From Desulfobacteraceae bacterium (GTDB taxonomy: Bacteria; Desulfobacterota; DSM-4660; Desulfatiglandales; Desulfatiglandaceae): a stretch of DNA of 6,631 nt. A model generated the notes under the pieces. It had not been told where the DNA came from, ran no database searches, and saw only the letters and a program-made list of their open reading frames with translations. The DNA lies in the NCBI GenBank assembly GCA_013203065.1, contig JABMQV010000727.1:1-6631 (forward strand), written 5' to 3'. The translations under genes were made by a program, and so were the position numbers. This document shows positions 1,974 through 6,253 of this stretch, piece by piece (the first letter of the stretch is position 1; each line of letters begins with the position of its first letter).

Positions 1974-3605
1974 TCAGACCGGTATTTTAAACCCTGCTGT
2001 TTTTCTGAAGGCATCCGATACCTCTTGTATTGTTGCCCCGGCTTCAACCGCCTTCATGATCGGTTCGAAGAGGTTTGTCTCCGGTCTTTTCCGGGCCAGA
2101 TCAAAGAGTTCTCCCAGTGCCCTCTTGACAGGTTCTTGATCCCGGTTTTTTTTGTATTCCTGTATATAGTGTATGCGTTTGGCCTGCATGTCCGACGTCT
2201 GCTTGAAAATGTTGATCACCACCTCTTCATCTTCTTCTTTGAAGATGTTGACACCCACCAAGGGTTGATCCAAACTCTCGATTGCCTCTGCCAGCGTGTA
2301 ACGGGCCTCATTAATCTGCTCTTCCACCCATCCCTGCTTGAAGCATTGGATAAATCCTCCCTTGTCTTCGATTACTTTCATCAATTCCCAGATCTTTTCT
2401 TCAATCTGGTCTGTAAGGGATTCCACCAGATAGGAACCCCCAAGGGGGTCTGCCGAATTGACGACTTTGGTCTCGTAGGCGATGATCTGTTGGGTGCGAA
2501 TGGAAAGCTTATGGCTCTCCTCGGTCGGCAGGGAGTATGCCTCATCATAACCGGTCGTGTGTATGGATTGGGTCCCTGCCAGCACAGCAGCAAGGGTCTG
2601 AATCGTGGTCCGGACGATATTGTTAATGGGCTGCTGGGCCGTCAGTGGCAAGGCTGAAGTCTGGATCGCACTTCGAAACCACATGGATTTCTCGTTTTTG
2701 GCCCCGAATTTTTCTTTGAGCATCCTGGCCCAAATCCGTCGCATGGCCCTCAACTTGGCTACCTCTTCGAAAAGGTCCATGTGGGCCGCAGAGAAAAAGG
2801 CCATCCGCCTGGCGAAGCTGTCCACATCCAGCCCCCTCGCCATCAGGGCCTTGATATAATCAGCCGCCACCGAGAGCGAAAAGGCCGCCTCCTGTACTGC
2901 ATCAACCCCTGTTTCGCGGACATTGTATGCGTTGATGTTGACGATGTTCCATCTGGGCATCCGCGGTACGATATATTCCATGACGTCAAGCCCGATCTTT
3001 ATGGTGAGATCAATAGGAAAAAAGGTGGTGTTGGCTTGATAGGTAGGGCCCACGAACTGTGTTATGGGGCAGTTCATAATGGTGCCGATCAATTTTTCCC
3101 ATGGGATGCCCCGCTCTCTTGCCAGCAAGAGATATTGAGACATGATCACGGCGGAATAGGGGGGTTGGACGATCAGCGTTGAACTAACCTGGTCAAGGGG
3201 GATGTCCGCATACAAGGCCCTCATGTCTTCGTAAGTGCTCAAGGAGGTTCCCTGGAGCCCAACGTCGGCCCGGGCGAGGGGATAGTCCGGATCGAGCCCC
3301 AACTTGGTGCCGATGTCCGTGTCCATATTGATTCCCGTCTGTCCGATCTTGAGAAGATATTTGAATCGCTCATTACTGTCCTCAGGCGTCCCAAATCCGC
3401 TCTGTTGCCTCCTGGTCCACAGCCTGCCCCGGTACATATCCTTGTGGATTCCCCTGGTGAATGGGTATACGCCTGGGTTCGGGATTTCCTTGTCCCAGTC
3501 GGATTTGCTATAGGTCTCTTTATACTCGAAGCCCGAAAGGCTCCTGAAATGGTTAATCTTTTCACCCTTGAGATAGGTTGATTTCTTTTCCCTGTTTTGG
3601 TCCAT
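1974..3605 (-). CDS. Acyl-CoA mutase large (catalytic) subunit, methylmalonyl-CoA mutase family with atypical pocket
   Basis: This 543-residue protein is the substrate-binding TIM-barrel half of a B12-dependent acyl-CoA mutase. Family hallmarks are PFTRG (48-52), W63-T64, GFGTPEDSN (70-78), GQTG (88-91), IPLDQVS (135-141), an MPRWN core (216-220), the TQSIHT segment (345-350), DPLGGSY (386-392) and AGAT near the C-terminus (522-525). By hand alignment to the Propionibacterium enzyme, Tyr89 becomes Gln68 and His244 becomes Asn228. The Arg207 loop is rewritten with about four extra residues, and no arginine occurs between 165 and 215. Ala116 becomes Asp95, the position of the substrate-binding Asp117 of 2-hydroxyisobutyryl-CoA mutase. 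Methylmalonyl-CoA is therefore an unlikely substrate, and a hydroxyacyl-CoA or other unusual acyl-CoA is more likely (inference). The ATG at 3605 follows AGGGAGG with a seven-base spacer. An out-of-frame ATG four bases earlier is ignored. The TetR gene is 38 bases upstream. Confidence 0.93.
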   Translation of the reverse strand: MDQNREKKSTYLKGEKINHFRSLSGFEYKETYSKSDWDKEIPNPGVYPFTRGIHKDMYRGRLWTRRQQSGFGTPEDSNERFKYLLKIGQTGINMDTDIGTKLGLDPDYPLARADVGLQGTSLSTYEDMRALYADIPLDQVSSTLIVQPPYSAVIMSQYLLLARERGIPWEKLIGTIMNCPITQFVGPTYQANTTFFPIDLTIKIGLDVMEYIVPRMPRWNIVNINAYNVRETGVDAVQEAAFSLSVAADYIKALMARGLDVDSFARRMAFFSAAHMDLFEEVAKLRAMRRIWARMLKEKFGAKNEKSMWFRSAIQTSALPLTAQQPINNIVRTTIQTLAAVLAGTQSIHTTGYDEAYSLPTEESHKLSIRTQQIIAYETKVVNSADPLGGSYLVESLTDQIEEKIWELMKVIEDKGGFIQCFKQGWVEEQINEARYTLAEAIESLDQPLVGVNIFKEEDEEVVINIFKQTSDMQAKRIHYIQEYKKNRDQEPVKRALGELFDLARKRPETNLFEPIMKAVEAGATIQEVSDAFRKTAGFKIPV

Positions 3606-4269: not shown

Positions 4270-4285
4270 AACCGACTGGTCGGTT
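4270..4285. promoter_or_regulatory. Probable TetR operator (AACCGAC-TG-GTCGGTT)
   Basis: Two exact 7-bp inverted half-sites flank a 2-bp centre, 24 bases upstream of the chosen regulator start and downstream of its best promoter candidate. The size, symmetry and ACCGAC/GTCGGT half-sites are typical of TetR-family operators. Binding here would block transcription of the minus-strand operon. Confidence 0.7.
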
Positions 4286-4538: not shown

Positions 4539-4556
4539 TCAAAACTTCCGTTTTGA
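4539..4556 (+). repeat. 7-bp hairpin in the leader of the GT-C/TPR gene
   Basis: TCAAAAC (4539-4545) and GTTTTGA (4550-4556) are exact reverse complements around a TTCC loop. The hairpin falls at the predicted transcription start and ends 14 bases before the AGGA of the ribosome binding site. It could stabilise the 5' end of the message or be an operator half-site pair. Confidence 0.4.
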
Positions 4557-4582
4557 TAAGGGGACCTTTTAGGAAATATTCC

Positions 4583-6253
4583 ATGTCATTGAGGGCAAAT
4601 ATTCGATCTCATCGTTTTGAACTGATCGTCTGTGTGTTTTTGATTGTGATGACGCTTGCGGTCTACTGGCAGGTGCTTGGCTATGATTTTGTGAACTATG
4701 ATGACGACGGTTATATTACCGAAAATCCTTCTGTGAGGGAGGGGCTTACCAAAAAGAATTTCCTCTGGGCTTTCACTTCATTCCACATCGGAAACTGGCA
4801 TCCGTTGACCTGGATTTCCCATATGTTGGACTGCGAACTGTTTGGGTTGAAGCCAGGAATGCATCATCTGACCAACCTCCTATTTCACACAGTAAACAGT
4901 CTGTTGCTGTTTTTGGTTCTTAGGAGGATGACGGGATCCATATGGCGCAGCGGTTTTGTTGCGGCCCTTTTTGCTTTGCATCCTCTTCATGTCGAATCGG
5001 TGGCATGGATCGCAGGGAGGAAGGATGTCCTCAGCACCCTTTTCTGGATGCTCACCCTGTGGGCCTATGTTAGATACTGTGAGAGGCCGGCTGCTTTTCG
5101 GTATTTCCTGATCCTTATCTTCTTTGCCTTGGGTCTCATGGCCAAACCGATGCTTATTACCCTCCCGTTTATCTTGCTTCTCTTGGACTACTGGCCTCTT
5201 AATCGGTTGAACCTGGACTGGGCGGATAAAAAAAACAACATGCAGTTCCAGACATCGTCGATTTTTCGGCTTGTTTTAGAAAAAGTCCCGCTGTTTGCTA
5301 TTACAGGGCTATTGGTCGTTGTGACTTTTTTTGCCGCGGACAAGCCAGGCTTGTTGACGTCTTTGGATGATCTTTCCCTAGAGGCAAGAGCAGCTAATGC
5401 TCTTGTTTCATACGTGAGTTACATAAGGAAGATGGTCTGGCCAGGTGATCTCGCGGTCTTCTATCCCCATCCGGGAACTGTCCCGGTATGGCAGGTTGGG
5501 GGTACAGGGCTGCTTTTCATCTGTGTATCGATTATGTTTATAGGGGTCTTCAGGAGCCGTCCCTATCTATTGGTGGGATGGCTATGGTATCTTGGAACCC
5601 TTGTGCCGGTCATTGGCGTGGTTCAAGGGGGTGCGCAGGCCATGGCGGACCGGTACACCTATGTTCCCCTTATCGGCCTGTTTATCATGATCGCCTGGGG
5701 CATCCCGGACTTATTGGGTAAATGGCGCTACAGACGCAGTGTGCTTTCCCTTTCAGCGGGTCTGGCGCTTTCGGCTGTCATGCTCTTTACATGGCTTCAA
5801 CTCCACCACTGGAGAGACAGCATTTCACTTTGGACAAATGCCTTGAGGACGACTCCTAACAACTGGATAGCACACAATAACCTGGGAAAATTTCTATTGG
5901 ATGAGGGGTGGCGCATAGAGCAAAGGAGACATCTTTCGAAGGAGATACTGATTCGCTATGGTTTTCATAGTGTACCTGTCGATGAATTGATAAAAGCTCC
6001 CCCTTTTCAGAAGACCCTCCAAGAAGCCGCCGGACATTTCATTGAGGCGCTAAAGATAAATTCCAACTACGTGAGGGCCTACGATAACCTTGGCATTGCG
6101 CTTGCCTATCAGGGCAAATACAACGAAGCTATTATTCAGTTTAGAAACGCACTCCACATAAGACCGGATGATGAGACTGCGCGTCGAAATCTCGAACATA
6201 CTTTGAAGAAAATAAGGAAATCCCCCAGTGCGTCTGATAGCAGCCCCCGTTAG
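4583..6253 (+). CDS. GT-C (TMTC/PMT-like) multi-spanning membrane protein with C-terminal TPR
   Basis: This 556-residue inner-membrane protein has about ten hydrophobic segments (for example 12-32, 98-115, 173-203, 234-252, 307-323, 328-346, 361-376 and 387-404). A soluble tail follows from about 410. The first loop carries NYDDDGY (38-44), the acidic motif expected for a GT-C lipid-phosphosugar glycosyltransferase. NWHPLTW (71-77), HPLHVESVAW (133-142), GRKD (145-148) and DRYTY (356-360) match the pattern of TMTC/protein O-mannosyltransferase-like proteins with TPRs. The likely role is transfer of a sugar from a polyprenyl carrier to an exported acceptor (family inference). The tail has a clear TPR at 497-530. 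A preceding TPR is split by about 35 extra residues (443-480). I chose ATG 4583 because AGGA lies eight bases upstream. An in-frame TTG at 4553 adds ten residues without a ribosome binding site. It is divergent from the mutase operon and probably unrelated to it. Confidence 0.88.
   Translation: MSLRANIRSHRFELIVCVFLIVMTLAVYWQVLGYDFVNYDDDGYITENPSVREGLTKKNFLWAFTSFHIGNWHPLTWISHMLDCELFGLKPGMHHLTNLLFHTVNSLLLFLVLRRMTGSIWRSGFVAALFALHPLHVESVAWIAGRKDVLSTLFWMLTLWAYVRYCERPAAFRYFLILIFFALGLMAKPMLITLPFILLLLDYWPLNRLNLDWADKKNNMQFQTSSIFRLVLEKVPLFAITGLLVVVTFFAADKPGLLTSLDDLSLEARAANALVSYVSYIRKMVWPGDLAVFYPHPGTVPVWQVGGTGLLFICVSIMFIGVFRSRPYLLVGWLWYLGTLVPVIGVVQGGAQAMADRYTYVPLIGLFIMIAWGIPDLLGKWRYRRSVLSLSAGLALSAVMLFTWLQLHHWRDSISLWTNALRTTPNNWIAHNNLGKFLLDEGWRIEQRRHLSKEILIRYGFHSVPVDELIKAPPFQKTLQEAAGHFIEALKINSNYVRAYDNLGIALAYQGKYNEAIIQFRNALHIRPDDETARRNLEHTLKKIRKSPSASDSSPR

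Follow-up and report, generated by a model that had tools for sequence, protein, structure and literature searches.

The window, a 6,631-nucleotide stretch of DNA from an uncultured bacterium related to the sulfate reducers, encodes a B12-dependent acyl-CoA mutase large subunit, MutL, that very probably represents a distinct subfamily of this known kind of enzyme. Together with its small B12-binding subunit, MutS, it would probably catalyze a radical 1,2-shift, with an acyl-CoA substrate that is not methylmalonyl-CoA.

Four genes lie on the minus strand of the window, in the following order of transcription: a TetR-family regulator (4261-3644; TetR_C_24, PF17932 and PF00440), MutL (3605-1974; 543 aa, the substrate/CoA barrel of PF01642), MutS (1899-1507; 130 aa) and a Zn-dependent medium-chain dehydrogenase (1445-354; 363 aa, PF08240/PF00107), the last of which is likely to belong to the same operon as MutL and MutS. 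All four recur in this order, with the dehydrogenase again 3' of MutS, in the Desulfobacteraceae MAG BS750m-G49 (L001), whose DNA is 94.4% identical to the window over 3879 bases and whose TetR gene is cut by the contig end. A palindrome with 7-base arms, AACCGACTGGTCGGTT, lies 9 to 24 bases before the TetR start (4270-4285) and is a candidate TetR operator. A similar palindrome, AAACCGGTCAGTCGGTTT, precedes the TetR gene of L190, and different ones are found in L046 and L196, while the same scan identified none before TetR in L047 and L043. No cobalamin riboswitch was detected at the gathering threshold in the window, L041, L043, L047, L194 or L195, and the same RNA scan returned one tRNA, in L047. 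The divergent gene at 4553-6253 of the window, whose product has TPR repeats and a region resembling mannosyltransferases (PF13231), seems unrelated to the mutase genes.

The MutL sequence scored far above the cut-off of the PF01642 barrel (563.7 against 22.1 bits) and also exceeded that of TIGR00641, a broad NCBI domain model (522.4 against 303.8). The complete B12-binding partner reported in a preliminary description of this DNA was recovered as MutS, which matches TIGR00640 (124.5 bits, cut-off 57.45) and PF02310 and carries the DxHxxG motif as DSHDNG at residue 15. With a barrel above cut-off and a B12 partner containing DxHxxG, MutL and MutS have the features of an AdoCbl-dependent acyl-CoA mutase, for which isomerase activity is predicted. 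The best PDB sequence match of MutL was the 2-hydroxyisobutyryl-CoA mutase (HCM) 4r3u (422.6 bits), and its AF2 model (mean pLDDT 87.8) gave Foldseek TMq values of 0.92 to 4r3u and 0.91 to 2xiq. The score of MutL on NF006944, the equivalog model of methylmalonyl-CoA mutase (MCM), was 440.5 against a cut-off of 876; this model also spans the B12 domain. The shortfall was dropped as proof against MCM and is weak evidence, since L016, a mutase with the MCM pocket pattern Tyr89/Arg207/His244 (Tyr/Arg/His) from the related genome G001, falls short as well (663.6). Other Tyr/Arg/His proteins also scored below it (L125 453.4, L152 402.6, L085 784.2), and only L084 (982.5) exceeded it among those scored.

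MutL was aligned by HMMER to 4r3u, human MCM and 1req, and a multiple alignment was prepared in addition. Both confirmed the three replacements named in the preliminary description: MCM Tyr89 is Gln68 (codon CAG, 3404-3402, minus strand), His244 is Asn228 (codon 2924-2922), and the loop carrying Arg207 has four added residues and no Arg. The loop (Gly186-Ala191, codons 3033-3050) aligns as GTIMNCPITQFVGPTYQANTTFF against GTIQNDILKEFMVR----NTYIY. Asn228 follows Tyr227, the counterpart of MCM Tyr243 (codons 2922-2927), and Met177-Asn178-Cys179 (codons 3069-3077) correspond to MCM Gln197-Asn198-Asp199. Beyond the replacements described earlier, the alignments contain Gln197 to Met177 and Asp199 to Cys179, as well as Ser114 to Asn93, Ser164 to Thr143 and Thr166 to Ile145, and Asp95 (codon 3321-3323) where MCM has Ala116. 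The Asp95 column is that of HCM Asp117 (4r3u SEQRES 128) and the Gln68 column that of HCM Ile90 (SEQRES 101), with a constant offset of 11 to the HCM numbering. The window protein shares with MCM (1req, human 2xij) the PF01642 barrel, the B12 motif, Glu247, Arg87 and Tyr243, but Tyr89, Arg207, His244, Gln197, Ser114 and Asp199 are all replaced and the small subunit is separate.

In MCM, Tyr89 and Arg207 hold the substrate carboxylate, and His244 and Gln197 the thioester oxygen. The loss of the Tyr89/Arg207 clamp, combined with the replacement of His244 and Gln197, argues that the substrate is not methylmalonyl-CoA. Two of these sites, His244 and Tyr89, have already been studied in MCM, as the PDB contains the mutants H244A (1e1c) and Y89F (5req). 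Isobutyryl-CoA mutase (ICM) and IcmF (4xc6) resemble the family in having no Arg207 carboxylate clamp; however, MutL lacks the Phe89/Gln207/His244 combination seen in ICM-like proteins of the survey described below, having Gln, the rebuilt loop and Asn instead, and the family has no GTPase fusion.

The conservation of the pocket was followed in 238 distinct relatives that share 58-97% identity with the window MutL; these were the best 120 of 7997 scored in each of two protein searches, and so the set leans to close kin and under-samples distant ones. All 238 retain Asn93, Asp95, Met177, Asn178, Cys179 and Asn228, all 232 with a residue at the position in question retain Gln68 and Arg87 (six gaps for Gln68), and 237 retain Glu247. 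Gln68, Asn93, Asp95, Met177, Asn178 and Asn228 are likewise kept in each of 18 family proteins from the examined loci (55-83% identical to the window, some also among the 238). Cys179 is Asp in two of the 18 (L043 7387-9015 and L044 7249-8889), which form the earliest branch of the family. Such strict retention of the replaced residues speaks for selection acting on a functional pocket, so that the family probably rearranges a different acid and would have a new substrate specificity.

An MCM with unusual but equivalent residues would have the same fold (TMq 0.91 to 2xiq), exceed TIGR00641 and carry the source names observed, most of those shown for the relatives (best 120 of each search) being methylmalonyl-CoA mutase. 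This explanation is nevertheless highly improbable, as Tyr89, Arg207, His244 and Gln197 are all absent and G001, a close relative, has separate mutases with the Tyr/Arg/His pattern (L016/L069).

To place the family among its paralogs, PF01642 proteins were surveyed in 49 genomes of the phylum of G001; matches were obtained in 38, and all 122 listed (E up to 1e-80) were taken. The His244 column contains 92 His, 12 Asp, 8 Asn and 10 other residues, with the assignment uncertain in the most diverged rows (e.g., L149, L157, L161, L178), and Gln197 is kept in 108 of the 122. The earlier statement that His244 is nearly invariant was therefore too strong, and its loss was rejected as a unique trait of the window family, 30 survey proteins being without it. 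Among these 30 are two that resemble MCM beta chains (L139 and L142). MutL could by analogy be a catalytically dead, beta chain-like subunit, an idea that its own B12 subunit, its gene neighborhood and the strict pocket conservation make extremely unlikely. Three of the 122 proteins, from G027 and from G001 (the chosen center of the survey), belong to the window family. Other clades without His244 have Asp, Phe, Val, Tyr or Gly instead (L119, L120, L122, L123, L129-L131, L138 and others). A second, separate Asn244 clade (L132, L137, L143) has Leu or Ile at position 89 and keeps Gln197; L011 (G003:C68), outside the tree, resembles it in the alignment. Acyl-CoA mutase paralogs are unusually numerous in some genomes, with 17 PF01642 matches in G042 and 10 in G001.

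The tree comprised 64 rows, leaving out ten truncated, beta-like or duplicate ones, with no more than eight His rows taken for each pocket signature and without labelled ethylmalonyl-, pivalyl-, methylalkylsuccinyl- or benzylmalonyl-CoA mutases; midpoint rooting was used for drawing only. The window family forms one clade with 100/100 support. It falls within a 32-row group (87/98) together with an eight-row Asp244 clade and a five-row clade, the branching order among them being unsettled, and its half of the tree contains 43 rows, one of them with His (L126). The uncharacterized Asp244 clade of Desulfobacterota (mostly Val89, Ile116, Gly207) shares with the family the lack of His244 and the NxxY(N/D)xRE motif, but keeps Gln197 in seven of its eight tree members and has neither the loop insertion nor Gln at position 89. 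With the replacements kept in relatives, a fully supported clade and separate Tyr/Arg/His mutases in G001, the proposal of a distinct mutase subfamily was supported, as was the warning that an automatic MCM label would mislead, given a rewritten and conserved pocket in a clade of its own.

HCM was placed, weakly, in the other half of the tree, and a single clade of HCM and the window family was rejected (p-AU 0.0012). The Asp that the two have in common was accordingly rejected as a sign of close kinship and must be convergent or coincidental and not due to descent. MutL might still have arrived from another branch at an HCM-type activity, on 2-hydroxyisobutyryl-CoA or a similar 2-hydroxyacyl-CoA. 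Ile90 and Asp117 are the HCM-specific residues, with Asp117 binding the substrate hydroxyl, and Asp occupies the latter column in all 238 listed relatives (best 120 of each search). In addition, sequence and fold comparisons both rank 4r3u first among PDB entries (TMq 0.92), and HcmAB has the same layout of large and small subunits. However, Ile90, Gln and His of HCM are replaced by Gln, Met and Asn in the family, the loop insertion is added and the common clade is rejected, so that we consider an HCM-type enzyme rather unlikely, although less so than an MCM.

The gene neighborhood was compared across 17 loci, drawn from the window and from 14 genomes, a set without the surroundings of the G458 member; neighbors were labelled through BLAST clusters with one or more annotated members, and many others stayed unlabelled. 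MutS lies beside MutL in 15 of the 17 loci, the remaining two (L192 and L193) ending nearby, and a TetR gene adjoins MutL or is one gene away in 11. A CoA ligase is encoded near MutL in 12 loci: a PaaK-like ligase in six (L002, L190, L047, L045, L193, L196), and an AMP-ligase accompanied by an MmgE/PrpD protein (PF03972/PF19305) in six (L041, L043, L044, L191, L194, L195). TRAP transporter parts occur in eight loci (L041, L043-L047, L195, L196), with some about 6 kb off in L192, and MeaB in two (L042 and L194). The window and L001 have the Zn dehydrogenase beside the mutase instead of a ligase, L042 has neither, and the contigs of L046 and L192 end too soon for a judgment on ligase or dehydrogenase. 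The recurrence of TetR, CoA ligase, TRAP transporter and MmgE/PrpD genes near the mutase suggests uptake, CoA activation and B12-dependent rearrangement of a carboxylic acid under TetR control. The known hcl-hcmAB plan also has a ligase gene beside the mutase genes (PMC7176365), a likeness to HcmAB seen in the 12 ligase-bearing loci and not in the window. The MmgE/PrpD proteins accompanying the mutase and AMP-ligase (e.g., L041:2298-3659, L194:6991-8349 and relatives) form a subfamily with no assigned role; the best PDB matches of the L194 protein were cis-aconitate decarboxylase (94.6 bits) and iminodisuccinate epimerase (93.4 bits).

The PaaK-like ligase adjoining the mutase in six loci would suit an HCM-type enzyme, but in L047 it is nearer to phenylacetate-CoA ligase (PaaK 2y27, 279.4 bits) than to 2-hydroxyisobutyryl-CoA synthetase (6hdw, 157.2 bits), and its score of 341.7 falls short of the 646.3 required by the PaaK equivalog model. 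Another candidate substrate is a larger or aromatic acid of the 2-arylpropionyl-CoA type, since the loop insertion and such a ligase fit a bulky group. Phenylacetate-CoA ligases are the best PDB matches of the L047 protein and the bulky Tyr89 is gone, whereas half of the ligase-bearing loci (6/12) have the other AMP-ligase with MmgE/PrpD; we regard such an acid as improbable. An acyl-CoA mutase of an anaerobic pathway, benzylmalonyl-CoA mutase IaaGH, is described in PMC8360864; compared by description and not by sequence, it differs from the family in that its aromatic substrate carries a carboxylate.

From the observed sequence, conservation, clade and gene neighborhood, a radical mutase activity, its reaction type and a substrate class can be predicted. 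The acid would be taken up by the cell and tied to CoA, and MutL and MutS, as an AdoCbl radical mutase, would then shift the -CO-S-CoA group between neighboring carbons of that acid, with Asn228 taking over the contact to the thioester oxygen. Asp95 and Gln68, at the two columns that distinguish HCM, point tentatively to a small branched acyl-CoA with a hydroxyl or similarly polar group. To our knowledge, few reactions of B12 acyl-CoA mutases have been characterized, and the strictly kept, rewritten pocket in a recurring neighborhood points to a rearrangement of carbon skeletons, probably a new one, in anaerobic carbon turnover. The family also constitutes a natural test of the need for His244 and Gln197 in radical migration. 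Its members could serve as scaffolds in mutase engineering; one Hcm was inactivated when first-shell residues were changed by rational design (PMC11599936).

Family members were found in seven of 395 genomes of the phylum (56-97% identity, up to three candidates scored per genome), in six of 85 genomes of the order of G001 (three already found by other searches), in four of 23 of the class of G218 (query L045; two already found), in four of 46 of the class of G180 (three already found) and in one of ten of the class of G172 (already found). On plasmids, searched with the window MutL and again with L045:7161-8798, none of the 426 records with a match reached 60% identity. A full-text literature search, with most subscription journals outside its scope, returned no paper recognized as describing the family.

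Finally, the column of MCM Tyr243 divides the family into two forms, as 159 of the 238 listed relatives (best 120 of each search) have Tyr and the other 79 have Arg. On a 79-row tree (75 family rows, from listed proteins thinned at 86% identity, and four outgroup rows), two changes from Tyr to Arg are the fewest required, placing the replacement at least twice independently. A single Arg243 clade, a group defined by the trait itself, was rejected (p-AU 2.75e-62). Ser242, Arg243, Val290 and Ala383 predominate in each of the two Arg lineages and are seldom found among the Tyr rows, with Ser242 at 67% in the first lineage and the second comprising four sequences only. Five of the six genomes with an Arg form also have a Tyr form (G027, G364, G218, G464, G491); in G340, a whole-genome search found the Arg form only, on a contig ending after MutS. 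As a tentative overall proposal, the family may use B12 radical chemistry to rearrange a class of substrates on which no mutase is known to act, Asn standing in for the His that holds the oxygen, and may form the center of an operon for acid degradation in uncultured Desulfobacterota; Arg243 and Tyr243 large subunits may then be paired through two successive shifts or in one mixed complex. Arg-form large subunits are encoded in L043, L044, L045, L192/L196 and L194/L195; in L043, L044 and L045 both forms lie in one stretch, and L045 contains two MutL genes and one MutS gene.
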